Positions 26,034 to 46,279 of a stretch of 64,000 nt of DNA are shown here, in pieces (within the stretch, counting starts at the first letter, position 1; every line of letters begins with the position of its first letter). Below the pieces are notes generated by a model that was not told where the DNA came from, ran no database searches, and saw nothing but the letters and a program-made list of their open reading frames with translations. The translations under genes and the position numbers were made by a program. The DNA is from Halobellus rarus (lineage in GTDB: Archaea > Halobacteriota > Halobacteria > Halobacteriales > Haloferacaceae), in contig NZ_JANHDI010000001.1 of the NCBI RefSeq assembly GCF_024494595.1, positions 1-64,000 of the forward strand, given 5' to 3'.

Positions 26034-26267
26034 ATGGACATACTCCTACCGGCGTTTATCGGCATCCCAGGCGGTCCGGAACTGCTCGTCGTCCTCCTCC
26101 TCGTCGTCCTGCTGTTCGGCGCGGACAAACTCCCGAAACTCGCTCGCTCCTCCGGGCAGGCGATGGGCGAATTCAAGCGCGGACGTGACCAGATCGAAGA
26201 CGAACTCAGAGAGGCCGCCGAACCGACGTCGGCCCACACCGATGGGGAGGCGGTCGAACGTGTCTGA
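26034..26267 (+). CDS. tatA: twin-arginine translocase TatA/E protein
   Basis: A 77-residue protein with one N-terminal membrane span (ELLVVLLLVVLLFG), the hinge FGADKLPKLARSSGQAMGEFKRG and a short acidic tail, the classic TatA layout. It forms the pore for folded Tat substrates, which in haloarchaea include much of the secretome and the RR-signal surface proteins encoded at 29-36 kb. The ATG at 26034 gives MDILLPAFIGI; upstream in-frame codons overlap the cgi121 region in another frame. It appears monocistronic. Confidence 0.94.
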   Translation: MDILLPAFIGIPGGPELLVVLLLVVLLFGADKLPKLARSSGQAMGEFKRGRDQIEDELREAAEPTSAHTDGEAVERV

Positions 26268-26488: not shown

Positions 26489-27115
26489 TTACGCTTCCTC
26501 GGCGAGTTCTCGCGGGGGCTCGACCTCCGGCGGCGTCGCGGTGTTTCCGATGAGCGTCCGGCGGTCGCGGATCGTGTGGACGCAGCCGGCGACGGTGAAC
26601 GCGGCGGCGACGAACAGCGCGTACCCGAATCCGCCCACGTACGAGAACGGAGCGAATCCGAGCGCGGCGACCACGACCAGAGCCGACAGGACGCTTCCCA
26701 GTACGAGGTAGAACTGACTCCACGGGATGTCGTCTCGGGGCACCACGTCGAGGTAGATGTCGAACGCCCGGACGTGGTCCGTCATCGTGATCGTTCCCCG
26801 GTTCTTGTCGTACTCGACGACGCCGAGTCGATCCATCGTCGGGAGGTGGGTCTGGTGGAGCGCGGTGTATACCCGTTTTCGCTGTTTCGGCGTCACCGCC
26901 CGCCGCTCGATCCGGTTCTCCCAGGCCGCAATCTGCTCGGAGAGGTCGCGGACCGTCACCGAATCGTCCACCTGCGCCAGGTAATGGAGGGTGTACCGAC
27001 GACGCCGACTGCTCAGCGTCTCGAAGACCGTCTCCGTAGACAGTTCACGGTCCGTCGGGGTGTCCGAACTGCCGGCGTTCTCTTTGGTTTTTGATATCTG
27101 TGCCCCGCGTTTCAT
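26489..27115 (-). CDS. winged-helix (DUF7344-like) membrane protein
   Basis: A 208-residue protein. Residues 30-125 form a winged-helix DNA-binding domain (VFETLSSRRRRYTLHYLAQ; RKRVYTALHQTHLPTMDRLGVVEYD). Two C-terminal membrane spans follow (FYLVLGSVLSALVVVAALGF and GYALFVAAAFTVAGC). This one-component, membrane-tethered regulator type is abundant in haloarchaea (DUF7344, as I recall). The signal and targets are unknown. It is paralogous to the protein at 28521-29063, sharing ALHQTHLP. It is convergent with tatA. Confidence 0.87.
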   Translation of the reverse strand: MKRGAQISKTKENAGSSDTPTDRELSTETVFETLSSRRRRYTLHYLAQVDDSVTVRDLSEQIAAWENRIERRAVTPKQRKRVYTALHQTHLPTMDRLGVVEYDKNRGTITMTDHVRAFDIYLDVVPRDDIPWSQFYLVLGSVLSALVVVAALGFAPFSYVGGFGYALFVAAAFTVAGCVHTIRDRRTLIGNTATPPEVEPPRELAEEA

Positions 27116-27375
27116 ACCGATCTATTGACGGATACGAATATGAATCTATCTATCATGGAATACGGTGGCGTTAACCACGGTCACTCGTCGGGGTACTGGC
27201 GGAGTAACTGCCCGTTTGTGGGGACGTAGGGATTGCAACTGACCGCGATTCAGACGTGATCGGTAGATGTGAACTCGTAAACGCCCAGTAGCTCGCCCTC
27301 CACCGTACCGCCGGCCTCACGGCGGATATGCCGATCATACCTATGGGTTTCGATGGCCTTATCGGAAGGAGAGAG

Positions 27376-28191
27376 ATGAATCGACAACCATCTATATCGA
27401 TACTGACACGAATTCGCCGCCCGGAGTACACCGGTGCCAACCGGTGTCTCCCCTGCACCGTCGTCAACCTCGTTCTCGCGGCGGCGCTCACCGCTGCGGT
27501 GGCACTCGTCTCGCTCCCAGTCGCCGCCGCCGTCGCTGCCGGGTCGCTCGCGAGCATCTACGCTCGCGGCTACCTCGTCCCCGGAACGCCCGAACTCACG
27601 AAGCGATACCTCCCCGGCCGCGTGCTCGCGTGGTTCGGGAAGGGGGGCACCCCGATCCCCACCCACGATGCCGACTTCGACGTCGTGTCGTTTCTCGATC
27701 GGTCCGGGGTCGTCGTCGACGACGGCGACGACGTCGCGCTCGCACCGAGCTTCGAGCGTCGCTTCGAGACGGCCGCCTTCGACCTCGACACCGAGGCGGC
27801 GATGACAGCGGCCGCGGCCGATCTGCTCGCTGTCGCCCCAGATCGCGTGTCGTTCGTCGCCGGCGGTGCGTCGTGGCGCGTCCTGGTCGACGGTTCGATA
27901 CTCGGGCAGTGGGAGTCGCGGGCGGCGTTCGTCGCCGACCTCGCCGCCCACCGCACGCTCTCGGCGTGGACCGACGAGTGGGCGTCGGTGCCGGACGCCG
28001 CCCGCGGCCGGACGCTCTCTGCGGTCCGCGCCTGTCTCGAAACCTGCCCCGTCTGCGAGGGCGACATCCGACTCGGGACCGAGACGGTGAGCTCCTGCTG
28101 CCGCGAATACGAGGTCGTCGCGGCCACCTGTGCCGACTGCGACGCCCGGCTCTTCGAGACCGACGCGCGGGCCGTGGCCGCTGCGGCGTGA
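27376..28191 (+). CDS. membrane protein with C-terminal zinc ribbon
   Basis: About 271 residues. The N-terminus (MNRQPSISILTRIRRPEYTG) is followed by a CLPC motif and two close membrane spans (NLVLAAALTAAVALVSL and VAAAVAAGSLASIYA). A ~170-residue cytoplasmic domain follows, ending in a zinc ribbon with CPVC near residue 226, a CC pair near 241 and CADC near 255. The ATG at 27376 is favoured over 27328 because homologous-looking starts are compact. No enzymatic motif. It lies between two membrane-tethered winged-helix genes. Confidence 0.75.
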   Translation: MNRQPSISILTRIRRPEYTGANRCLPCTVVNLVLAAALTAAVALVSLPVAAAVAAGSLASIYARGYLVPGTPELTKRYLPGRVLAWFGKGGTPIPTHDADFDVVSFLDRSGVVVDDGDDVALAPSFERRFETAAFDLDTEAAMTAAAADLLAVAPDRVSFVAGGASWRVLVDGSILGQWESRAAFVADLAAHRTLSAWTDEWASVPDAARGRTLSAVRACLETCPVCEGDIRLGTETVSSCCREYEVVAATCADCDARLFETDARAVAAAA

Positions 28192-28520: not shown

Positions 28521-29063
28521 TCAGAAGACGCGGGCCCGGAACCGCGCGAATCGACCGCGCGCGCCGAGTCGCGCGGCCGCCAGCTGGTAGGCTGTCGAAA
28601 GGGCGAAGCACACGAGGAACGCCGTCGACGGGACGAGCGGGTCGACGGCGGCGAAGCCGGGGACGGAGGCGAGCGACGCGACCGTCGTGAACAGTCCCAC
28701 GACGCCGAGCGCGCGGTAGTACTCGCCCCAGGTCACGCCCGCCCGCGTGGTGACGTCCATATACCGCCCGAGGTGTCCGGCCTGCGGACACACCGATACC
28801 AGCTTTCGGTCGGGATCGTACACGACGAGGCCGAGCTCGGCCATCTTCGGGAGGTGCGTCTGATGGAGCGCGTTGTAGACGCTCTCGCGGAGCGCCCGCG
28901 GCGCGGGGCTCTGACCGGACTCTGTCGCCGCGATCCGCTCGGAGAGCTCACGCAGCGAGAGCGCTTCCGGGTGGGCCCACAGCTCGGCGAGCGTCTCCCG
29001 CCGGCGCGCGTTACTCAGTACCTGGTACACCTCCACTTCCGGAAGCACGGACCGCTGGAACAT
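28521..29063 (-). CDS. winged-helix (DUF7344-like) membrane protein
   Basis: A 180-residue paralogue of the protein at 26489-27115. The winged helix covers residues about 10-100 (VYQVLSNARRRETLAEL; SVYNALHQTHLPKMAELGLVVYD), and two C-terminal spans follow (ALGVVGLFTTVASLA and STAFLVCFALSTAYQ). The ATG at 29063 (MFQRSVLPEVE) is chosen, since the 61-codon extension upstream is read through the repeat-rich spacer and has no plausible coding bias. It is divergent from the TasA-like locus. The shared spacer carries a phased repeat array, so it is a candidate regulator of that locus. This is inference. Confidence 0.85.
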   Translation of the reverse strand: MFQRSVLPEVEVYQVLSNARRRETLAELWAHPEALSLRELSERIAATESGQSPAPRALRESVYNALHQTHLPKMAELGLVVYDPDRKLVSVCPQAGHLGRYMDVTTRAGVTWGEYYRALGVVGLFTTVASLASVPGFAAVDPLVPSTAFLVCFALSTAYQLAAARLGARGRFARFRARVF

Positions 29064-29122: not shown

Positions 29123-29278
29123 CGGCACGCTCACCGTACGGAACCGAGGTCTGATCCCTCCGCATCGGTACGTGTGCCGGACCGATCGGTATGCGCGGCG
29201 GACCCGGCCGGTATGCGTGGCGAAGCTGACCGGTACGCGTTCCCATCTCTCCCGGTACGGCCGCTATACGCGGCGGTA
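29123..29278. promoter_or_regulatory. phased array of CGGTAYG repeats every 21-22 bp
   Basis: CGGTA(C/T)G occurs at 29166, 29187, 29209, 29231, 29253 and 29274, with a weaker CGGCACG at 29123. Successive spacings are 21, 22, 22, 22 and 21 bp, i.e. two helical turns, so the sites face the same side of the DNA. Flanks vary (for example CCGGTATGCGTGGCG, CCGGTACGCGTTCCC), so this is an iterated binding-site array rather than a simple duplication. It lies between the winged-helix gene and the first TasA-like gene. Confidence 0.7.
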
Positions 29279-29443
29279 CGGCCCTCGTATCCGGCCGCCG
29301 AATCGCGTAACGTGACCCTGAAAACGGCCGTTTCGAGGTTCAAAACCGTTGAATCGGTGCATAGGTAATACCCCCCGAGCTGTGGGGTAATTCGTCCCGA
29401 AACGACCGGTGACGGTCTCACGGTCCGACGGGAGGACAAACCA

Positions 29444-30781
29444 ATGACGCAAGACAGCGAACCCCAACTGTACAGCCTCTCACGCCGTAAAATGCTCGCC
29501 GGTCTCGGTGCCGTCGGCCTCGCCTCCGCGGGTGCCGGTCTCGGTACCTCCGCGTACTTCAGCGACGAGGAGAGCTTCGAGAACAACACCCTGACGGCCG
29601 GGACGCTCGACCTGCGCGTCCGCTATGAGGCCTCCTACGACAGCGGCGACACGGTCGAGAATATGGCCGACGCCGCGATGGGAACCCAGGACGGGTCGCC
29701 CGCGGGAATGTTCTACGACCTCCAGGACGTGAAGCCGGGCGACTCCGGTCACGTCGAGTTCTGTTTCGACATCGTGGACAACCCCGCCTACATGTGGGCG
29801 TGCGGTGACCTCTCCCAGGCCGAAAACGGAATCACCGAGCCCGAGAGCGCGGTCGACGACACGCCCGAGCTCGGCGAGCTCGGCGACAGCATCGTCGCCC
29901 GGCTCTCCTACTGCGACATCGACGACGAGGAGCTCGTCGAGGGCGAGGAGATCGTCTCCGGATCGCTCGTCGACGTCTTCGCGGCCATCGCGAACGGCGC
30001 GGCCCTCGACGGCGACGGCGTCGCCGGTCTCGCCCCCGGCGAGCAGTCCCCGTACGACGAGGAGGTCGTCGGAGACGAAGAAGCATACATCACCGGCGCG
30101 TGCCTGTGCCTGTTCTGGGAGATCCCGTACGAGGTCGGCAACGAGATTCAGTCCGACTCGCTGACGATGGCGCTGGAGTTCCACGCGCTGCAGGCCCGCC
30201 ACAACGACGGCACGACGAACCCCTGCACGCCGACGGTCACCACCCGGACGGGCGAGGGCTTCGCCAAGCAACAGGAGTTCGCCACCGAGCAGGAGACCTC
30301 CTTCGCCCGCGGCCGATTCGGTAACAACGGCCCCTCGGGCTCGTGGGAAGTCGCCGTCGGCCCCGACGTCGGGAGCGCCGACACGGCCAACTACGTCTGG
30401 ACGCCCGGTGACACGGTGTCGTTCAGCTACGCCTACGACGGCAGCGGTACCGCCTCGTTCACCCTCGACGGCGTGAACGTCGGCAGCGGAATCCCCGCGC
30501 CGAGCGGCAAACTCGCGATCACGACGAAGGCCGACGAGGCCACCGTCAGCGTCGCGAACCTCGCGCTCGACCTCGACGGCGTCCCGGTCACCCTCAGCGG
30601 CCCCGACGCGATCTCGGCCAGCAACGACGGGTCCGGCCGCGAGGTCACCTACCTCGTCTTCGACACCGACGCCGCGGACGTCGCGAACGCGTTCGCGATC
30701 TCCGGCGACGTCACCGTCGACGTCCAGGGCGACTACTCTGGCAGCGAGGAAGGCGTCGCCTTCGACATCAGCGTCGAGTGA
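29444..30781 (+). CDS. TasA/camelysin-like surface protein with extra C-terminal domain
   Basis: 445 residues. The signal region has a twin-arginine motif (SLSRRKMLAGLG), and then the SipW-type junction GTSAYFSDEESFENNTLTAG at residues 34-53. Residues about 55-255 are the TasA-like beta domain (DVKPGDSGHVEFCF; VGNEIQSDSLTMALEF; ARHND). A separate beta-rich domain fills about 265-445 and resembles choice-of-anchor modules (SFARGRFGNNGPSGSWEV). It is probably exported folded and then trimmed by the peptidase at 36574. A GGAGG ribosome-binding site precedes the ATG, and the leader contains a hairpin at about 29371-29391. It is followed by an 18-bp repeat array, then the next paralogue. It is likely a filament or matrix subunit. 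Confidence 0.85.
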   Translation: MTQDSEPQLYSLSRRKMLAGLGAVGLASAGAGLGTSAYFSDEESFENNTLTAGTLDLRVRYEASYDSGDTVENMADAAMGTQDGSPAGMFYDLQDVKPGDSGHVEFCFDIVDNPAYMWACGDLSQAENGITEPESAVDDTPELGELGDSIVARLSYCDIDDEELVEGEEIVSGSLVDVFAAIANGAALDGDGVAGLAPGEQSPYDEEVVGDEEAYITGACLCLFWEIPYEVGNEIQSDSLTMALEFHALQARHNDGTTNPCTPTVTTRTGEGFAKQQEFATEQETSFARGRFGNNGPSGSWEVAVGPDVGSADTANYVWTPGDTVSFSYAYDGSGTASFTLDGVNVGSGIPAPSGKLAITTKADEATVSVANLALDLDGVPVTLSGPDAISASNDGSGREVTYLVFDTDAADVANAFAISGDVTVDVQGDYSGSEEGVAFDISVE

Positions 30782-30864
30782 GCGCCGCCGTCGACAGCAG
30801 CGCCGCCGTCGACAGCAGCGCCGCCGTCGACAGCAGCGCCGCCGTCGACAGCAGCGTCGAGTAA
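30781..30864. repeat. 18-bp tandem repeat ending in a duplicated stop region
   Basis: Four perfect AGCGCCGCCGTCGACAGC units (30781-30852), followed by AGCGTCGAGTAA. The preceding gene ends AGCGTCGAGTGA, so the gene end is present on both sides of the array. In the frame starting at 30781 the array reads SAAVDS repeats and ends with the same SVE-stop. Confidence 0.93.
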
Positions 30865-30959
30865 TCGACACCTGACACCCTCCGCGACCCTGACCGGCCC
30901 GCGGGGGTGAGACACCACCCCACCACACCAAACATTCCCGACCACACGGACCAAAACCA

Positions 30960-32672
30960 ATGACCAACGATCCCAAACAGTACACGTTATCGCGCCGCAA
31001 GATGCTCGCCGGAATCGGCGTCGTCGGCCTCGCCTCCGCGGGCACCGGCCTCGGCACGAGCGCGTTCTTCTCCGACGAGGAGGAGTTCGCGAACAACTCG
31101 CTCGTCGCGGGCGAGCTCGACCTGCTCGTCGACTGGCAGCAGACCTACGACTTCGGCGACGGCCACACCTTCGTCAGCGCCCACCCCGACCACGACGGCG
31201 ACGGCGAACAGTCCATCGCGGCCGACAACGACGCCGGGCAGCTCCGCTACAGCGACTTCCCGGACGAGGACGACGAGGACAGCAACGGCGCGAACATCCC
31301 GGTGCTGAACTGCGAGAACATCCCGCCGCTCTCCGAGGCGAACTTCGGCGTCGATCCCGTCACCGGCGAGGAGATGGACACGCTGGTGCAGTTCACCGAC
31401 GTGAAGCCCGGCGACTCCGGCGAGATCACCTTCTCGCTGCACCTCTGTGACAACCCCGGCTACCTCTGGATGCAGGCCGACAACGTCTCCGAGTCCGGCG
31501 GAATCCACGCCGAGCCCGAGATGGCGGTCGACCCCGACAACCTCCCGGACCTCGCCGGCGCGATCCAGGCGACGCTCTGGTACGACGAGGACTGCGACAA
31601 CGTCTACGACGGCGCCGATCCGGTCGACATTATGCTGACGCTGGACTTCTCCGGGTCGATGCTGTACGACCAGTACGGCGGCGTCGTCAGCGACGACGAG
31701 ATCCAGATCAACGGCACGACCCACCCGGAGACCACGAAGATCGACCTCGTCGAACTCGGGACCCGCCAGTTCGTCGACTACCTGCAGTCGCAGAACGCCG
31801 ACGCCAAGGTCGGCGTCGCGTACTTCGACGGCGAGGGAAGCGACGACTCCGAGCCCCGGACCGGTATCCTCCAGGCGATGACGACGGACCTCTCGGTCGT
31901 CGACGGCGCGCTGTCGGGACTCCGAGAGAAACTCGCCAACGTCGTCAGCGGCGGACCCGGCTCGACGCCCTTCGACGGCGACGGCGACCCGAACCCGTTC
32001 TCGAACGCGAACTCGATCGCGACGGGGACGTACATCGGCGAGGGCGTCGACGACGCGCAGGACGAACTCGCGGCCAACGGCCGCTCCGGCGCGGAGAAGC
32101 GTAACATCGTCCTCTCGGACGGCGAATCGTTCAACGGCGGCGGGAGCACGTCCTTCGCGTCCCCGCAGGACGCCGCGGACGACGCCCGAGCGGCCTCCCC
32201 GTCCCCGGAGACGGACGTCTACACCATCTCCGTCGGCAGTGCGAACGACGGCGTGCTCCAGGCGATGGCCGGCCCCGCCGGCGGGTCGGGCGGCGACCCG
32301 GCGTTCTTCAACGACGTCGACGATCCGCTCAACGTCCCGAGCGTGTTCGGGAACCTCGCCGCTCAGACGGTCGCAGAGAAGGTCATTATGCAGGACACCC
32401 TCGACAACGTCCTGGCCGCGCTGGCCGACGGAAACGGCGTCCCGCTCGACGGCAACCGCGCGACGATCTACGACGAGCTGAACGACGACCCGACGGACCC
32501 GGACCGCGAGGCGTTCCGCGGCGACGGCGTGATGCACTGCGTCGCGCTGTCGTGGGAGCTCCCGTTCGAGGTCGGCAACGAGATCCAGGGCGACACGCTC
32601 GGCTTCGATCTCGGCTTCTACACCGAGCAGGAGCGCCACAACGACGGCTCCGGCCCGGAGCTCGCCGCCTGA
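30960..32672 (+). CDS. TasA-like surface protein with nested von Willebrand A domain
   Basis: 570 residues. The signal region is TLSRRKMLAGIG, with the SipW-type junction GTSAFFSDEEEFANNSLVAG at residues 32-51. The TasA-like domain is split. Its first half runs to about 220 (DVKPGDSGEITFSLHLCDNPG; LWYDEDCDNVYDG), and its second half resumes near 480 (LDNVLAALADG; VGNEIQGDTLGFDLGF; QERHND). Between them lies a vWA domain (about 222-470) with a complete metal site: DFSGSM (D229, S231, S233), a Thr in SIATGTYIG, and LSDGES (D387). The paralogue at 29444 has the same flanks without the insert, so the vWA is nested. It may act as a metal-dependent adhesive subunit. Confidence 0.87.
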   Translation: MTNDPKQYTLSRRKMLAGIGVVGLASAGTGLGTSAFFSDEEEFANNSLVAGELDLLVDWQQTYDFGDGHTFVSAHPDHDGDGEQSIAADNDAGQLRYSDFPDEDDEDSNGANIPVLNCENIPPLSEANFGVDPVTGEEMDTLVQFTDVKPGDSGEITFSLHLCDNPGYLWMQADNVSESGGIHAEPEMAVDPDNLPDLAGAIQATLWYDEDCDNVYDGADPVDIMLTLDFSGSMLYDQYGGVVSDDEIQINGTTHPETTKIDLVELGTRQFVDYLQSQNADAKVGVAYFDGEGSDDSEPRTGILQAMTTDLSVVDGALSGLREKLANVVSGGPGSTPFDGDGDPNPFSNANSIATGTYIGEGVDDAQDELAANGRSGAEKRNIVLSDGESFNGGGSTSFASPQDAADDARAASPSPETDVYTISVGSANDGVLQAMAGPAGGSGGDPAFFNDVDDPLNVPSVFGNLAAQTVAEKVIMQDTLDNVLAALADGNGVPLDGNRATIYDELNDDPTDPDREAFRGDGVMHCVALSWELPFEVGNEIQGDTLGFDLGFYTEQERHNDGSGPELAA

Positions 32673-32684
32673 ACCGTGAGCACG

Positions 32685-32726
32685 ACCCACAGCGGCGGTA
32701 ACGGGGGTTCGACTCCCCCGGTGGGT
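32685..32726 (+). other. structured spacer resembling a tRNA acceptor/T-arm minihelix
   Basis: ACCCAC (32685-32690) can pair with GTGGGT (32721-32726). Inside it, GGGGG-TTCGACT-CCCCC (32703-32719) forms a 5-bp stem with a 7-base loop that matches the tRNA T-arm consensus TTCRANT. An 11-base connector replaces the D- and anticodon arms. It sits between two TasA-like genes. It may be a relic of a tRNA, a terminator, or a mimic in the 5' region of the next gene. Confidence 0.5.
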
Positions 32727-32797
32727 TCTCTCCCTCCATCTGGGAAGGGAGGACAGCACCGCGCACGGACCACGACACAGACGATCGAATCAAGACA

Positions 32798-34276
32798 ATG
32801 ACACCAGACGACGAACTACCGCTGTACAACCTCTCTCGGCGCCGCGTCCTCGCGGGCCTCGGAGCGGTCGGCATCGCCTCCGCCGGTACCGGTCTCGGTA
32901 CCAGCGCGTTCTTCTCCGACGAGGAGGAGTTCGCGGACAACACGCTGCAGGCCGGGACCCTCGACCTGAAACTCGACTACAAGGCGACGTACCTCGGCGG
33001 CCCGGGCCGGCTCGACGCCGTCAGGGCGATGGGCTACCCCGACGCCGAGGAGATTATCGAAGACGACGAATCGACGGGCCGGTACCTCCTCGCGCAGGCG
33101 CCCTCGCCCGCAGATATGCAGGAATGGGAGGATCTCGTCCAGGGGGAGCAGTTCGACTTCTGTAGCCCCGAGGCCGACGAGTACCTCGAGAACGGCGACG
33201 GGATCCCGATGTTCACCATCTCGGACGTCAAACCGGGCGACTCCGGCGAGGTGACGGTGAGCATCCACATCTGCGACAACCCCGGATACCTCCGGATGGT
33301 GGGCGAACTCACCGGCAACGACGAGAACGGCCAGACGGAACCCGAGATCGACGCCGAGGGCGAGGACGCCGACGGGATCGGCGAACTCGCCGACGCCATC
33401 GAGGTCTGCGTCTGGTACGACGAGGACTGCGACAACGTCTTCGAGCCGACCGGCACCGGTCAGCAGCAGGAACTGGAGGTCGCGCTCGTCTCCGACGTCT
33501 CCGGGTCGATGGGCGGATCGGCGCTCTCGTCGCTGAAGACGGCCGCGACGAGTTTCGTCGACAACCTCTCCTCGCCCGACGAGGCCGCCGCGATCTCGTT
33601 CAACAACGGCGCCACGACGGATCAGGAACTGACGACCGACTATCAGGCCGTCAAGGACGCGATCGACGACTACAGCGCCGGCGGCGGCACGTCCATCGCG
33701 GCCGGGATCGACGAGGGCGCGGACGAACTGCTCAACGGGACGAACGCCACCCCCGGCGCGTCGAAAGTGATGATCCTGCTGAGCGACGGCAACTCGACCG
33801 CGTCGGCTGCAATCTCGGCAGCGAACGCCGCCAAGGGAGCCGGAATTCGGCTTTTCACGATCGCGCTCGGGAGCGCGAACACGTCGCTCCTGCAATTCCT
33901 CGCGAGTTCCCCGGACGACGCGTTCGTCGCGCCGGACCCGGCGGACCTCGACACGGTGTACGCGGAGATCGCCCAGATCGTTCTCGGCGGCGAACAGAAG
34001 ATCGCCGAGGGGACGATGGCGGAGGTGTTCGCCCAGCTCTCGGACGGTATCATCCTCGACGGGAACAGACAGGAGGACGGTCTCCAGCCGTACCCGGGCG
34101 CGACGACCCAGTGCATCGGCTTCGAGTGGACGCTCCCCGCCGACGTCGGCAACGAGGTGCAGTCCGACTCGATCGGCTTCGACTTCGGCTTCGAGGTCGA
34201 GCAGTCGCGGCACAACGACACGCCGTTCGCGACGCCCGAGCCCGCGCCGGCGAACTCGACTGACACCGGAAACTGA
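32798..34276 (+). CDS. TasA-like surface protein with nested von Willebrand A domain
   Basis: 492 residues. The signal region is NLSRRRVLAGLG and the junction is GTSAFFSDEEEFADNTLQAG (residues 34-53). First TasA-like half: about 54-215 (DVKPGDSGEVTVSIHICDNPG; VWYDEDCDNVFEP). The vWA domain spans about 226-395 with all metal ligands: DVSGSM (D233, S235, S237), GGGTSI (T298) and LSDGNS (D330). The second TasA-like half resumes at about 405 (MAEVFAQLSDG; VGNEVQSDSIGFDFGF; QSRHND). It is more compact than the vWA of the preceding paralogue. It appears to have its own promoter region behind a tRNA-minihelix-like structure. The predicted role is a surface or filament adhesin subunit. Confidence 0.87.
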   Translation: MTPDDELPLYNLSRRRVLAGLGAVGIASAGTGLGTSAFFSDEEEFADNTLQAGTLDLKLDYKATYLGGPGRLDAVRAMGYPDAEEIIEDDESTGRYLLAQAPSPADMQEWEDLVQGEQFDFCSPEADEYLENGDGIPMFTISDVKPGDSGEVTVSIHICDNPGYLRMVGELTGNDENGQTEPEIDAEGEDADGIGELADAIEVCVWYDEDCDNVFEPTGTGQQQELEVALVSDVSGSMGGSALSSLKTAATSFVDNLSSPDEAAAISFNNGATTDQELTTDYQAVKDAIDDYSAGGGTSIAAGIDEGADELLNGTNATPGASKVMILLSDGNSTASAAISAANAAKGAGIRLFTIALGSANTSLLQFLASSPDDAFVAPDPADLDTVYAEIAQIVLGGEQKIAEGTMAEVFAQLSDGIILDGNRQEDGLQPYPGATTQCIGFEWTLPADVGNEVQSDSIGFDFGFEVEQSRHNDTPFATPEPAPANSTDTGN

Positions 34277-34511
34277 CACCGACGACGACCGACACCGGCT
34301 GTCGCTGTCGATGCTGCGGAACGTCCCCAGCACCGCAGTCGGCCGTTCGCTCCGAACGATCACCCCGGTAACGACGCCATGCCGCGGAGTACGGGCGCCG
34401 TATCGGTCGCGAAGCCGATCCATACCTATGACCGCCGCTGCCGTATCGCCCACAGAACACGGATCGGGTGCCGATCCACCGACCGACCCGGCGTATCCGG
34501 GACAACTGACA

Positions 34512-35321
34512 ATGACACTCACACGTCGGGAACTGTTGACGGGAATCGGCGGCGGCGCGCTCGCCGTCGGAGGGTTCTCCCTCCGCCGGGACGCGCCCCG
34601 CTTCTCCCAGTACACCTACGCCGCACCGGAGGACGACACGGACGACCGACGGCTCCGTATCGCCTGGTACGAGAAATACAACGGCGGCTTCGTCGCGAAC
34701 CACGCCGGAACGAACGACAGCCTCGAGGCGACGCTCGATCCCGATACCGGGCCCGCGTACGTCGACGAGGCGACCTTCGTGACCGACGCGAGCGGCCCGG
34801 TCCTCTCCGTGGGGAACGTGCTCCCCGGAGACACGGGCACGCTCGTCGTCGGCCTCGAAGTCGTCGACGGCAGCGGCGCGGAACCGCTCGACGTGTGGTT
34901 CCGCGCGTCGCTGACTGAAGACGGCGAAAACGGCGTGAACGGCCCCGAACGGGCCGCCGGGGATAACACGGAGGACGACGGTGAACTCGACGAGGACGCC
35001 GTCGTCGAGATGTGGCTCGACGGCTCGCCCCTGGGGAGCTGCAACGGCACGAAGGAGTTCGACGAGGCGCTCGAATCGCCGCTCGTCGCTCCGTCTCCCT
35101 TCGCGGAGGCGTTCGCACCGACGGCCGACGCCGGCGACGACGAGGGACTGCTCGCGATCGAATGCCTCGCTCCGGGATCGTTGCGGTGCGTCGCGCTCCG
35201 CTGGGAACTCCCGATCGAAACGGGGAACCGAGCGCAGGGGGACTCCCTCGGCTTCGACTTCTCCTTCGTCGGCGGCGCCTGCGACGGCGACAGCCCCTTC
35301 CTCGTCGGAGGTGCGCGATGA
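34512..35321 (+). CDS. short divergent TasA-like secreted protein
   Basis: 269 residues. It has an RR-type signal (LTRRELLTGIGGGALAVGG) and a mature N-terminus that has lost the usual YFSDEE junction (here FSQYTYAAPEDDT). The middle keeps NVLPGDTGTLVVGLEV, aligned to the DVKPGDSG strand of the paralogues, and the C-terminal VALRWELPIETGNRAQGDSLGFDFSF matches their conserved last strands. There is no vWA insert. It is the first of five genes linked by overlapping stop/start codons. The ATG at 34512 is supported by the RR signal; the in-frame upstream extension lacks a signal. It could be a minor or cap subunit. Confidence 0.82.
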   Translation: MTLTRRELLTGIGGGALAVGGFSLRRDAPRFSQYTYAAPEDDTDDRRLRIAWYEKYNGGFVANHAGTNDSLEATLDPDTGPAYVDEATFVTDASGPVLSVGNVLPGDTGTLVVGLEVVDGSGAEPLDVWFRASLTEDGENGVNGPERAAGDNTEDDGELDEDAVVEMWLDGSPLGSCNGTKEFDEALESPLVAPSPFAEAFAPTADAGDDEGLLAIECLAPGSLRCVALRWELPIETGNRAQGDSLGFDFSFVGGACDGDSPFLVGGAR

Positions 35322-36577
35322 TACTGAGTCGCCGCCGCGTGCTGACAGCGCTGGCCGCCGCCGGCGGTGCGGGCGCACTCACGGGGACCGGGACGGCAGC
35401 GATGTTCCGGGACGCCGAGCGGTTCGAGGCGTCGATCACGGCCGGCACCGTCGACCTGGTCGTCGAGTACGAACTGCTGAGCGGCCCCGGCGCGGACGCC
35501 CCCGACGGGAGTGGCACCGTCGACGGTCCGCGGGTTCGGCTCCCGATCGAGTCCCTCGGCGCGGACGGCGACGCGGGGAGTATGCTCCTCACGTTCGCGC
35601 TCCCCCAGCGGGGCGACGCGGTCAACAACCCCGCGGCGCTGTGGCTCGCGACGGACTGTCCCGTGCCCGCGTCGACGGCGCTCGGCGAGGCGATCCGGCT
35701 GACGCTGTCGTACGCCGACTGCGACTCCGGAACCCCGATCGAGCGGATCGCCCGCGGATCGCTCCGGGAGGTCGCCGACGGTCTCCGCGACGGATACCGC
35801 GTCGACGGCGACCCGACCACGACCGAGGCGGACTGCCTGACCGACGAGGTCTGCCTGCTCGCCGAGTACGAGCTCGCCGGCTACGTCGGCAGCGAGACGG
35901 TCGACGTGCCCCTGTGGTTCTCGGCGATCCAGTGTCGGAACACGACGCCGGAGAACCCCTTCGCGGGCCGGGACACGGCGCCGTGTCCGCCCGCGGACCC
36001 GTGTCCGTGCTGCCGAACGCTCGGGAAACTGGAGTTCGAGGACGACACGCAACCCGGACTCGGCGACAGCTACGTCGAGCCGGGAACGTACGCGTTCACC
36101 GAGGGAGACACCGACTACGGGCTGGAGATCTACGACACGGCGGACAAAGACGGCGAGCGCGAGACGCTCGGCGTCGCCTTCCGCCTCGTGAACCTCGCCG
36201 ATAGCGCCGCCGCCGTCCCCGGACTCTGCACGGTCGCCGTCAAGGGCGGCCCCGGCTTCGAGCAGTACGACCGCGACGACGACACCCTCGTTGATACCGC
36301 GGATCTCCCCGGCAGCGACGACGACGGGCTCGTCTACGCGCCCGACGGCAAAGGAATCAGCCACGTCACCGTCTGCATCTGCACCACCGAATCGGCGGCG
36401 GACTGCCCCGGATGCACCGACCCCTCGCTCACGAACGGCGGGGGCGGCGGTCGGGGCGGAACGATTGGCGGAAGCGGCGGCCCCGACGAAACGAGCGGTG
36501 ACACCGACGAAACGAACGGCGGAGGCGGTGGCCGCGGCGGGAAACCGGAGACGGATCCGGTCGGAGGTGACCGATGA
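35318..36577 (+). CDS. TasA-like secreted protein with Cys-rich and Gly-rich C-terminal parts
   Basis: 419 residues. The signal is MILSRRRVLTALAAAGG, then TGTAAMFRDAERFEASITAG, a recognisable SipW-type junction. The TasA-like domain spans about 42-215 (TLSYADCDSGTPIERI; LAEYELAGYVGSETVDVPLWF). A Cys-cluster (CPPADPCPCCRTLGKLEF) links to a second beta domain (about 235-375). The tail has GGGGGRGG runs and more Cys (CICTTES, CPGCTD). Many Cys are unusual for a halophile surface protein and suggest disulfide or metal crosslinking. It overlaps its neighbours by ATGA on both sides, so it is strictly cotranslated with the peptidase. Confidence 0.82.
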   Translation: MILSRRRVLTALAAAGGAGALTGTGTAAMFRDAERFEASITAGTVDLVVEYELLSGPGADAPDGSGTVDGPRVRLPIESLGADGDAGSMLLTFALPQRGDAVNNPAALWLATDCPVPASTALGEAIRLTLSYADCDSGTPIERIARGSLREVADGLRDGYRVDGDPTTTEADCLTDEVCLLAEYELAGYVGSETVDVPLWFSAIQCRNTTPENPFAGRDTAPCPPADPCPCCRTLGKLEFEDDTQPGLGDSYVEPGTYAFTEGDTDYGLEIYDTADKDGERETLGVAFRLVNLADSAAAVPGLCTVAVKGGPGFEQYDRDDDTLVDTADLPGSDDDGLVYAPDGKGISHVTVCICTTESAADCPGCTDPSLTNGGGGGRGGTIGGSGGPDETSGDTDETNGGGGGRGGKPETDPVGGDR

Positions 36578-37494
36578 CCCGCGTCCCGACGCCGTCGGTG
36601 CCGAGCGCCGGGAAGTTGCTCGCGACGCTCGTCCTGCTCGCGGCGGTCTCGCCGTTCGTCGTCTTCGCGGTCCCGCAGACCATCGGAGCCGACGAGGGGT
36701 TCGTCGTCCTCTCCGGGAGTATGGAACCGGCGCTGTCGCCCGGCGACGTCGTGATCGTCGATGCCTCCGCGCCCGTGCGGGTCGGCGACGTAATCACCTA
36801 CCGCACCGGCGGCGACAGCGTGCCGACGACCCACCGCGTCGTCGGCGAACGCGACGGCGGCTACGAGACGAAGGGCGACGCCAACGAGAACGTCGACGCG
36901 GGCCTGGTCGGCCCCGGGGCGATCATCGGGCGAACCGTCCTCGTGATCCCGGTCGTCGGCCACGTCATCCTGTGGGCGAACACGCCCGTGGGATACGTCT
37001 CCCTCGTCGTCGCCCCGCTGGTGCTGCTCGGCGTGAGCGAACTGTTCGCGTGGGCCCGCAGGGAGCCGGAGGCCGACGCGTCCGGGGAGACGGGACCCGA
37101 GGCCGACGCGTCGTCCGTGGCAGATGTCGATACGCCCGCCACCGACGCCGGCGGGGTCGCTTCGGACGCCGAAGTCACTTCCGGAGGCCTCAGCGAGGCC
37201 ACCGCGCCGCAATCGGGCGGGACCGTCGCGGTCGCCGCCGTCGACCTGAAGCTCACGCTCCTGGCGATGGCGGCGCTGTTCGCCTACGCGGGGTGGAACG
37301 TGTACCGCGAGTTCGCCGTCGCGGCGGCCCCGAACCCCGTTTCCGTCGGCGCGCTCACGGGCGGACTGCTCGGCCTGCTGTTCGCCGGATCGGTGACGGT
37401 GGCCGCGTGGCGAGCGGCCCGATCCGCCACGCGGAGTCCCCCGGCTCCTGCTCTCACGGACGGGAGCGGGAACGCGGAGGTGGGCGATGAGTAA
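36574..37494 (+). CDS. SipW-type signal peptidase I
   Basis: A 306-residue membrane peptidase. An N-terminal span (LLATLVLLAAVSPFVVFAV) is followed by the catalytic Ser49 in VLSGSMEPALSPGDVV. His87 in TTHRVV takes the place of the bacterial Lys, and Asp102 lies in KGDAN. This Ser/His/Asp set defines the SipW/eukaryote-archaeal class. Further spans occur near 125-160 and 250-295, separated by an acidic linker. SipW in Bacillus trims TasA. Here the gene is locked by overlapping codons between TasA-like genes, so those are its likely substrates. A second, general-type peptidase is at 45389. Confidence 0.93.
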   Translation: MTRVPTPSVPSAGKLLATLVLLAAVSPFVVFAVPQTIGADEGFVVLSGSMEPALSPGDVVIVDASAPVRVGDVITYRTGGDSVPTTHRVVGERDGGYETKGDANENVDAGLVGPGAIIGRTVLVIPVVGHVILWANTPVGYVSLVVAPLVLLGVSELFAWARREPEADASGETGPEADASSVADVDTPATDAGGVASDAEVTSGGLSEATAPQSGGTVAVAAVDLKLTLLAMAALFAYAGWNVYREFAVAAAPNPVSVGALTGGLLGLLFAGSVTVAAWRAARSATRSPPAPALTDGSGNAEVGDE

Positions 37495-38344
37495 GACGCT
37501 CGCGGTCGTCTGTGCGCTGCTCGTGCTGTTCGCCTCGGCGACTGCCGGCTTCGCCGGCGGACTGTCCGTCGCCCTGCTGTCGGACGAGGAGTCGGTTTCG
37601 GTCGGCTTCAGCGCCGACGTGCCGAGCCCCGACCCCGTCACGATCGGCCTCGGCAGTGGACCGGCGGAACCGGTCGGCCCCACCGCGTTCGGACTCGCGG
37701 ACGCCGGGAACGAAACTGCGCCAGACGAGGGGGACCTCGGCGACAACTCCACGGAGCGAAACGACACCCTCGTGGAACCCGTGTCTCCGACCGGGAACGA
37801 TTCGGCCGGTAGCGTCCTCTCGCCCGACGAAAACGGCACGGTCGGACACGGCGAGACGGCCTCTAGCGAGGGGGCGATGGGTGCACCGGCCTCTGAGACG
37901 GCTGACCCGCCGGAGGCGGATGCAGTTCAGACGCCGGAAGACGAGGCTCAGACGCTGGAAGACGAGACTGAGACGCCGGAAGACGAGGCTCAGACGCTGG
38001 AAGACGAGACTGAGACGCCGGAAGACGAGACTGAGACGCCGGAAGACGAGACTGAGGCGCCCGACGACGAGAGCGCGTCGCCGCCGGACGGTGAAACCCC
38101 GTCCGAGGAACCGGAATCGACCGAGTCGGTCGATGTCGACACCGAGCAATCACCCGATTCCGACGGGGAGACCGAATCCGGACCGGAACCGACCGCCGGC
38201 GAGGTAGCGGATTCGGAGGCGGATCCCGCGAGCGACGACGAGACGGACGCCCAGCAGTCTGCCGACACCGGCGACGACCCGGACAGCGATACCGGTGATG
38301 CCTCGTCGGATACGTCGACGCCGGACGATTCCGACGCCGCCTGA
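37487..38344 (+). CDS. secreted acidic heptad-repeat protein
   Basis: 285 residues. The signal peptide (TLAVVCALLVLFASATAGFAG) leads to LSVALLSDEESVSVGFSADV, which still resembles the SipW-type junction of the paralogues. No folded TasA domain follows. The rest is disordered and extremely acidic, with six or seven tandem heptads of the type ETPEDET/QTLEDET (residues about 148-196). NxS/T sites (GNETAP, DNSTER, ENGTVG) allow N-glycosylation. It overlaps the peptidase gene by eight bases and the next gene by one. It may be a stalk or spacer at the cell surface. Confidence 0.8.
   Translation: MSKTLAVVCALLVLFASATAGFAGGLSVALLSDEESVSVGFSADVPSPDPVTIGLGSGPAEPVGPTAFGLADAGNETAPDEGDLGDNSTERNDTLVEPVSPTGNDSAGSVLSPDENGTVGHGETASSEGAMGAPASETADPPEADAVQTPEDEAQTLEDETETPEDEAQTLEDETETPEDETETPEDETEAPDDESASPPDGETPSEEPESTESVDVDTEQSPDSDGETESGPEPTAGEVADSEADPASDDETDAQQSADTGDDPDSDTGDASSDTSTPDDSDAA
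37928..38074. repeat. 21-bp coding tandem repeat, six copies plus one degenerate
   Basis: Units of 21 bp from 37928 (for example GAGACGCCGGAAGACGAGAC, plus one base), partly organised as 42-bp pairs (QTLEDET-ETPEDEA). The reading frame is kept, so copy number changes would lengthen or shorten the acidic stalk. Confidence 0.93.
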
Positions 38345-38481
38345 TGACCGCGCGGGCCAAACGCGTCTCGATCCACCTCCCCGGGACGGCTCCCGGTGCG
38401 CCGCGGCGAAACACGCTCGTGGTTCTCGGCTACCTTCTGGGTCTGGTCGTGTTCGTCGGGGTTCTTTTCGCACTCTTTTGA
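38344..38481 (+). CDS. 45-residue single-span membrane protein ending the TasA-like operon
   Basis: ATG at 38344 shares its A with the TGA of the preceding gene. TGA lies at 38479-38481. The basic N-terminus (MTARAKRVSIHLPG) is followed by one membrane span (TLVVLGYLLGLVVFVGVLFALF) that runs to the last residue. The tight overlap, length and basic-then-hydrophobic layout support a real gene, although it is short. It could tether or chaperone the peptidase or the surface filament. No family recognised. Confidence 0.75.
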   Translation: MTARAKRVSIHLPGTAPGAPRRNTLVVLGYLLGLVVFVGVLFALF

Positions 38482-45388: not shown

Positions 45389-46279
45389 ATGACGGACGAC
45401 GAGGGAGATGCGAACGCGCCCGGTCGACCGGACCCGGTTCAGCGCGAGGACGGGCCTTCGGGCCAGGACGGACCTTCGGGCGAGACGGCGACGCCCCCGA
45501 CCGACGACGGGTCCGATCGGGGCGAACCGGGACCGACCGATCGCCCCGACGCCGTCGACGACGGCGAGGCGACCCGCCTCCCTCCAGGGACCGTCGACTC
45601 CCGCCGCGACTCCGACAGCCGCCCCCGGCCGCGACCCGGAACGCGGGCCGCCGACCGCGACGTGAGTTTCCTGACACGCTTTCGGACGGCACAGAGCGGT
45701 CCGCTGCTCTTCGTCCGCGAGACGCTCTACAGCGCGCTCGCCGTCGCCGCCGTCGGCTTCCTCCTCTTTGCGATCAGCGGCGTCTGGCCCCCGATGGTCG
45801 CCGTCGAGAGCGGCAGTATGGAACCCGAGATGTCCCGCGGCGACCTGATCTTCGTCACGGAGCCCGAGCGGTTCACCCCCGACTACGCCTACGGTGACAC
45901 CGGCGTCGTGACGGTCGAAATCGGTAGCGAGGAGGGGTATCGGAGCTTCGGCGGCAACGGCTCGGTGGTGATCTACGACCCGCCCGACCGGATCGGCTCG
46001 CCGATCATCCACCGGGCGCACTTCTACGTCGAGGAGGGTGAGAACTGGTACGACCGGGCGAACCCGGCGCATATGAACGCGAACGACTGCAGCCAGCTCT
46101 CGAACTGCCCCGCGCCGCACGACGGCTTCATCACGAAGGGCGACGCGAACGCGCGGTACGACCAGGCGAGCAACATCGCCGGCCCCGTCCGATCGGAGTG
46201 GATCCGCGGGACCGCCCGGATTCGGATCCCCTATCTGGGGTACGTCCGGCTCAAACTGGCCGGGGCACTCGCTGCTTGA
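45389..46279 (+). CDS. signal peptidase I (Sec11-type)
   Basis: 296 residues. A ~100-residue acidic, proline-rich cytoplasmic tail precedes the single membrane span (LYSALAVAAVGFLLFAIS). The catalytic set is Ser143 in VESGSMEPEMSRGD, His208 in GSPIIHRAHFY and Asp252 in ITKGDAN. It matches the general haloarchaeal Sec11 peptidases that clean Sec-dependent signals. A C-terminal basic strand-span (YLGYVRLKLAGALAA) ends the protein. It contrasts with the operon-bound SipW-type enzyme at 36574. It is divergent from the PolD gene. Confidence 0.93.
   Translation: MTDDEGDANAPGRPDPVQREDGPSGQDGPSGETATPPTDDGSDRGEPGPTDRPDAVDDGEATRLPPGTVDSRRDSDSRPRPRPGTRAADRDVSFLTRFRTAQSGPLLFVRETLYSALAVAAVGFLLFAISGVWPPMVAVESGSMEPEMSRGDLIFVTEPERFTPDYAYGDTGVVTVEIGSEEGYRSFGGNGSVVIYDPPDRIGSPIIHRAHFYVEEGENWYDRANPAHMNANDCSQLSNCPAPHDGFITKGDANARYDQASNIAGPVRSEWIRGTARIRIPYLGYVRLKLAGALAA

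Follow-up and report, generated by a model that had tools for sequence, protein, structure and literature searches.

A portable gene row in Halobellus rarus that probably encodes an adhesive TasA-type filament

In Bacillus, SipW and TasA make biofilm fibres, and it is TasA fibres that give bacterial biofilms their cohesion; hyperthermophilic archaea have related fibres, the bundling pili of Pyrobaculum being made of TasA-like subunits. TasA assembles by donor-strand exchange, the stretch after its signal-peptide cleavage site being the donor strand (PMC9674648), and the B. subtilis protein has been proposed to reach the outside unfolded, via SecYEG (PMC10151520). Our search of the open-access literature found no paper on a TasA/SipW system in haloarchaea. 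Here we analyse a stretch of 64,000 nucleotides from the haloarchaeon Halobellus rarus (GCF_024494595.1, contig NZ_JANHDI010000001.1, positions 1 to 64,000; "the window", to which all coordinates refer), in which an initial annotation had proposed a TasA/SipW surface-filament system at 29444-38481. We consider it moderately probable that the locus is a portable operon with which haloarchaea build an adhesive filament of the TasA type, whose subunits would be exported by the twin-arginine translocation (Tat) pathway, processed by a SipW-type peptidase and then polymerised. Membership in the TasA/SipW kind is supported, by sequence comparison, at the levels of signal, peptidase and core.

Eight co-directional genes and their recurrence in haloarchaea

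Eight open reading frames lie within 29444-38481, all on the + strand and with ATG starts, as had been annotated. The last five overlap by 4 bp (P4/P5), 4 bp (P5/peptidase), 8 bp (peptidase/P7) and 1 bp (P7/P8), in agreement with the 1-8 bases reported earlier. The genes, and one region of P1 discussed below, are as follows:

29444-30781, +, P1 subunit: Tat and SipW signal, TasA-like core, C-terminal concanavalin-like lectin-fold domain predicted at aa 271-442
29555-29614, +, P1 aa 38-57: predicted mature N-terminus, the donor-strand region, from conservation across 87 subunits
30960-32672, +, P2 subunit: VWA domain (MIDAS) within a TasA-like core
32798-34276, +, P3 subunit: VWA domain at aa 228-388 (33479-33961) within a TasA-like core
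34512-35321, +, P4, candidate cap: TasA-like core and twin-arginine signal, without SipW or donor-tip motif
35318-36577, +, P5 subunit: SipW-type signal, TasA-like core, Cys/Gly-rich C-terminal domain
36574-37494, +, endoplasmic reticulum (ER)-type signal peptidase I (archaeal/SipW type) with a long C-terminal extension
37487-38344, +, P7: no twin-arginine motif, degenerate SipW site, donor-strand-like tip VALLSDEESV, acidic heptad-repeat tail
38344-38481, +, P8: 45-aa microprotein with a C-terminal membrane anchor and the motif PG(M/T)AxGAPRRN

A perfect 18-bp tandem repeat, AGCGCCGCCGTCGACAGC, begins at the P1 stop codon and runs for 4.2 copies (30781-30856).

For comparison we used 61 sequences, the window and 60 haloarchaeal loci, picked by matches to TIGR04088 rather than as a random sample. 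The same layout, a full cluster with a long peptidase, was present in 35 of the 61, which argues that the clustering is not due to chance; a search for this gene order in other haloarchaea, proposed as a check in the initial annotation, was thus answered positively. Among these 35 loci, we found a P7-like protein directly after the peptidase in 34, P4-like proteins in 32, VWA domains in 26 and relatives of two upstream genes described below, REG and N287, in 33 and 25, respectively. The row also stands, in unchanged order and with tatA included, on plasmids of Halorientalis marina and Haloarcula halophila; the N287 gene is not in the Halorientalis marina row, P8 is not annotated on the Haloarcula halophila plasmid, and the plasmid copies of the subunits are annotated by domain name only. 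SipW-type proteins occurred in 110 of 293 haloarchaeal genomes sampled and in 51 of 87 genera in the order, a distribution that is patchy also within genera. A viral origin was considered and rejected, no relative being found among 2.9 million viral contigs.

A second, simpler haloarchaeal layout consists of one to four small SipW-type proteins and a short peptidase of about 180-210 aa (loci L068-L070, L072-L074, L076, L078-L081 and L095), and is nearer to the classic TasA/SipW operon.

Signal peptides, subunit cores and peptidase

The SipW-type signal model TIGR04088 (cut-off 19 bits) matched P1 (32.5 bits), P2 (21.7 bits), P3 (26.7 bits) and P5 (21.4 bits), and these were its sole matches in the 3.66-Mb genome. 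Twin-arginine motifs (SRRKML, SRRRVL or TRRELL) stand ahead of the hydrophobic core among P1-P5, and a twin-arginine pair is present in 225 of the 242 SipW-type signals from the 60 loci and the window, with the full [STN]RRxPhiPhi motif in 214; signals lacking it belong mostly to P7-type proteins. Across six relatives from other classes of the phylum, the single RR seen lies ahead of the likely start codon. The predicted signal peptides of four of the five subunits combine twin-arginine and SipW types, which is new here, and donor-strand subunits with such signals would leave the cell in folded form, in contrast to TasA, for which a Sec route has been proposed. Conservation continues past the predicted cleavage site: over 87 subunits, the following 20 residues average 3.3 bits per column, against 3.6 in the signal and 1.56 in the next 33 columns. 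In the predicted mature proteins this conserved stretch corresponds to the donor strand of TasA. The module does not qualify as an archaeal type IV pilus, as its signals are SipW-type, not class III, and family scans of the module genes found no assembly ATPase.

Cores were compared without signal peptides, to avoid bias from the shared signal, as families built from relatives in other haloarchaea. The P1-, P2/P3-, P4- and P5-type core families prove homologous to one another (hhalign 98.7-100%) and also to SipW-type haloarchaeal proteins of only 170-260 aa (92-99%), and these small proteins in turn match TasA at 95%, with unrelated control families from the same loci at ≤0.5%. Against PDB, a profile of the small proteins retrieved TasA (5of1, E=1.4e-9; 8aur, E=1.8e-9) and a weak match to AbpX, an archaeal bundling protein (E=0.03), AbpA not being among the matches listed; this profile includes the signal peptides, and its TasA alignment spans profile positions 40-201, past the signal. 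Judged from these alignments, P1-P5 share a TasA-related core, and the earlier description of the proteins as TasA/camelysin-like is upheld by the hhalign chain and the PDB profile. P1 searched as a single sequence had no match in PDB. A weak match of about 40 residues between a profile of P1 relatives and sialoadhesin was dismissed as chance.

The annotated SipW-type signal peptidase was confirmed as an ER-type enzyme whose gene overlaps its neighbours: it matches the archaeal signal peptidase I model TIGR02228 above cut-off at 79 bits, the strongest of three matches in the genome. It scores 62.5 bits with the Bacillus SipW equivalog model and does not reach the cut-off of 190. The other two matches are on contig C16 and at 45389-46279 of the window, the latter an ER-type signal peptidase relative (P0013) just under the archaeal cut-off and probably housekeeping.

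Adhesion-type domains on three subunits

Two subunits had been credited with adhesion-type domains; we found three, as P1 carries a lectin-like domain besides the VWA domains of P2 and P3. The P3 VWA domain matches PF00092 at 84.5 bits, and an AlphaFold2 (AF2) model of mature P3 (pLDDT 84) places a VWA fold between two beta-rich parts. In P2 and P3 the domain is inserted in a hairpin of the core, between the strands near P1 residues 157 and 170, and the MIDAS residues D233, S235, S237, T298 and D330 are invariant among 27 aligned sequences. Among named relatives of P3, the closest belongs to Halobellus rufus (89%). The C-terminal domain of P1 is a choice-of-anchor W domain (NF041928, 73.8 bits), and in the AF2 model of mature P1 (pLDDT 80) it aligns with concanavalin-type lectins with a Z of about 14 over 153 residues at 6-10% identity. 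The model thus predicts a concanavalin-like lectin fold for the P1 C-terminus, a shared fold being no proof of sugar binding. Two subunits with a MIDAS-type VWA domain inside the core and one with a concanavalin-like lectin domain are new here. Such domains vary across the 87 large subunits, of which 36 matched the VWA model, 6 choice-of-anchor W and a few beta-helix or other domains.

Candidate end pieces of a donor-strand fibre

P4 has a core that matches those of P1-P3 (hhalign 99.7-99.9%). A twin-arginine signal is present in its relatives, the (A/Y)FSD tip is absent from all those listed, and many have a motif like YTxYTYAQ ahead of the core. P7 shows the converse arrangement: the [LFMI]xD tip after a hydrophobic stretch is kept in 21 of 35 relatives, RR occurs within the first 30 aa in 4 of the 35, and the tail is low-complexity and rich in Asp, Glu, Ser, Thr or Asn. 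The coding sequences of P7 relatives overlap that of the preceding peptidase. The pattern suggests that P4, a core without a canonical donor strand, and P7, a donor-strand-like tip without a core, are the two ends of a donor-strand fibre, a proposal that is new. TapA offers an analogy: its N-terminus after maturation, AFHDI, is similar to the AFNDI of TasA, and its residues 44-57 suffice for biofilm (PMC10151520). In the same way P7 may offer a donor strand and P4 accept one.

The acidic heptad-repeat protein of the initial annotation is present as P7 at 37487, and its heptads are encoded by a 21-bp tandem repeat of 6.9 copies (37929-38072). The 45-residue membrane protein annotated after it was likewise recovered as P8, anchored in the membrane at its C-terminus and with relatives in other loci. 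P8 relatives overlap the P7 stop codon in several loci, PGMAxGAPRRN proteins follow P7 in other genera, and nonsynonymous substitution rates fall below synonymous ones (dN<dS) in nearly all pairs; from the recurrence of these relatives after P7 and the dN<dS pattern, P8 is very probably a real gene.

Upstream extension: TatA, regulators and promoter region

The genes named in the initial annotation stand, and the boundary drawn around them does not: the module reaches upstream to about 26034. Along with the extra tatA and the regulators listed here, the twin-arginine signals and the lectin domain had been overlooked.

26034-26267, +, module TatA: TatA/E family (TIGR01411, 63 bits), extra to the housekeeping copy
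26489-27115, -, REG2: DUF7344 winged-helix-type regulator with C-terminal transmembrane segments (PF24035, 107.5 bits), in a conserved position
27328-28191, +, N287: conserved 287-aa membrane protein with C-terminal Cys pairs and no Pfam or NCBIfam family over cut-off
28521-29063, -, REG: DUF7344 regulator divergent from the operon (PF24035, 91 bits)
29166-29281, no strand, six CGGTAYG direct repeats: putative regulator operator with 21/22-bp spacing, two helical turns
29358-29374, +, conserved promoter element TGCATAGGTAATACCCC: same or similar element upstream in L038, L086, L091, L092 and L096

The genome has two tatA genes, the module copy being one of them. Two tatA genes were found in all eight tested genomes with a module tatA, and a single one in 13 of 14 other genomes. 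In a tree that is rough because the protein is short, a branch with 95/93 support unites the ten module TatA proteins, which come from two families and two plasmids; other TatA proteins group largely by taxonomy. The extra tatA has a clade of its own and accompanies the module on plasmids in other genera; this and the upstream extension of the module are new here.

The REG reading frame reaches 29246 and its relatives begin at Met 29063, a start that leaves 380 bp of intergenic DNA. Within it, successive CGGTAYG sites are spaced by 21, 22, 22, 22 and 21 bp, and related loci within this sub-lineage mostly have their GTAY sites 11, 21, 22, 32 or 64 bp apart, multiples of the helical turn. The wider motif CSGTAYGS is clustered and not enriched over the whole window (21 found, 24 expected). 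The DUF7344 regulators are putative binders of this array. A search for a shared promoter 8-mer gave nothing clearly above background.

Proposed assembly and alternative explanations

If the locus encodes a filament, its subunits would fold in the cytoplasm and leave through Tat, formed by the module TatA and the cell's TatC, with the uncleaved signal peptide keeping the donor strand unavailable. Outside the membrane, the linked peptidase would release this strand, which would then complete the next subunit by donor-strand exchange. P7, exported unfolded and probably by Sec, may start or end the chain as the TapA N-terminus does, and P4 would cap the other end. The lectin and VWA/MIDAS domains would stick out from the fibre and could attach to other cells or to surfaces by their glycans or proteins, and the helically phased CGGTAYG sites may be where the DUF7344 regulators act. 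We infer that filaments form, that export depends on Tat, and what P4, P7, TatA and the adhesion domains do, and the complete scheme of Tat-exported folded subunits, a dedicated co-inherited TatA, a signal-peptide lock, P4/P7 ends and exchangeable VWA/lectin heads is tentative, its chances falling somewhat short of even.

Several points weigh against this explanation. Haloarchaea send much, or most, of their secretome through Tat, so twin-arginine signals are expected for the lineage and may reflect its habit rather than a special mechanism. Module TatA was present in just 8 of the 61 sequences and therefore characterises a sub-lineage; the system does not require it. P4 falls below the TIGR04088 cut-off and has no SipW motif, and in the P7 proteins of Halorubrum the tip motif no longer has its D. 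Compared directly, the P1 core and one TasA sequence match weakly (hhalign 11.5%), which makes the kinship of P1-P5 with TasA a transitive one, via intermediates. The AF2 models of P1 and P3 have a beta-rich core on which the fold-search lists are silent, being occupied by lectin and VWA domains: Foldseek and VIA returned concanavalin-type lectins throughout for P1, with TasA absent, and VWA domains for P3.

Polymerisation, too, is a step that we infer, and the same genes could encode secreted surface adhesins that never polymerise, with VWA or lectin heads on a TasA-fold scaffold, processed by the peptidase and held as monomers in the S-layer or matrix. In favour of this, the size and variability of the inserted domains could hinder packing, and monomeric TasA self-complements (PMC9674648). 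We nevertheless regard such adhesins as rather unlikely: P1-P5 show no C-terminal membrane anchor in their sequences, so monomers would be lost, and two further observations count against them, the end-piece pattern of P4 and P7 and the donor-strand region, which ranks with the best-conserved parts of the mature protein. A fibre assembled alike could also serve cell-cell recognition, mating or DNA transfer among haloarchaea and plasmids rather than biofilm, which would suit the presence of the module on Halorientalis and Haloarcula plasmids and its patchiness within genera; with these plasmids typed as non-mobilizable and conjugation genes not seen in their annotated flanks, this function appears improbable. 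The Pfam name of camelysin, Peptidase_M73, would make the subunits secreted metallopeptidases, and PF12389 does match P1 over its cut-off (25.4 bits). That match is confined to aa 21-60, the signal and N-terminus, and because most of it lies in the signal it is a poor basis for kinship as well; the HExxH zinc motif is absent from the P1-P5 sequences, and we give this reading very little credence.

Comparison with known systems

If true, the filament reading would link archaeal and bacterial biofilm fibres and make the module a ready target for studying how salt-loving archaea adhere and build multicellular layers. A Tat route with its own TatA also raises the question of how premature polymerisation of folded subunits inside the cell is prevented.

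Archaeal bundling pili (AbpA of Pyrobaculum; AbpX, PDB 9sj2/9rhp) are TasA-related donor-strand fibres of archaea, as is proposed for the module, but they come from hyperthermophiles and their subunits are small; we know of no VWA or lectin heads, nor of any tatA linkage, in these pili. A haloarchaeal DUF1102 pilin (PDB 9p0a, deposited as a pilin) resembles the module in the RR-containing signal peptide of its haloarchaeal members. As a relative of the P1-P5 cores it is unsupported in sequence comparison (hhalign 0.2-6.6%). The H. rarus genome has two DUF1102 genes of its own (L124/L036 on contig C16 at about 302-305 kb, and L125 on contig C21), one of them about 2.7 kb from another signal peptidase; the match of DUF1102 to the solved pilin 9p0a (E=4.5e-17) suggests a second filament system in the same genome.

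Gram-positive pilus tip adhesins such as SpaC, a Foldseek match for P3, also bear VWA/MIDAS on a pilus subunit, but differ in backbone fold and assembly, Gram-positive pili with VWA tip adhesins being sortase-built. The tapA-sipW-tasA operon of B. subtilis shares with the module a SipW-type signal cleaved ahead of an aromatic-acidic tip, a linked ER-type peptidase, a TasA-related core and a gene for a TapA-like protein beside the peptidase, with overlapping codons. P7 differs from TapA in lacking a folded domain and in its low-complexity tail, so that the likeness is one of position and N-terminal tip only, and TapA is not conserved even within Bacillus (PMC10151520). Unlike the B. subtilis operon, the haloarchaeal module has twin-arginine subunits, many with inserted VWA or C-terminal lectin domains, and combines five or more subunit types with a TatA of its own.

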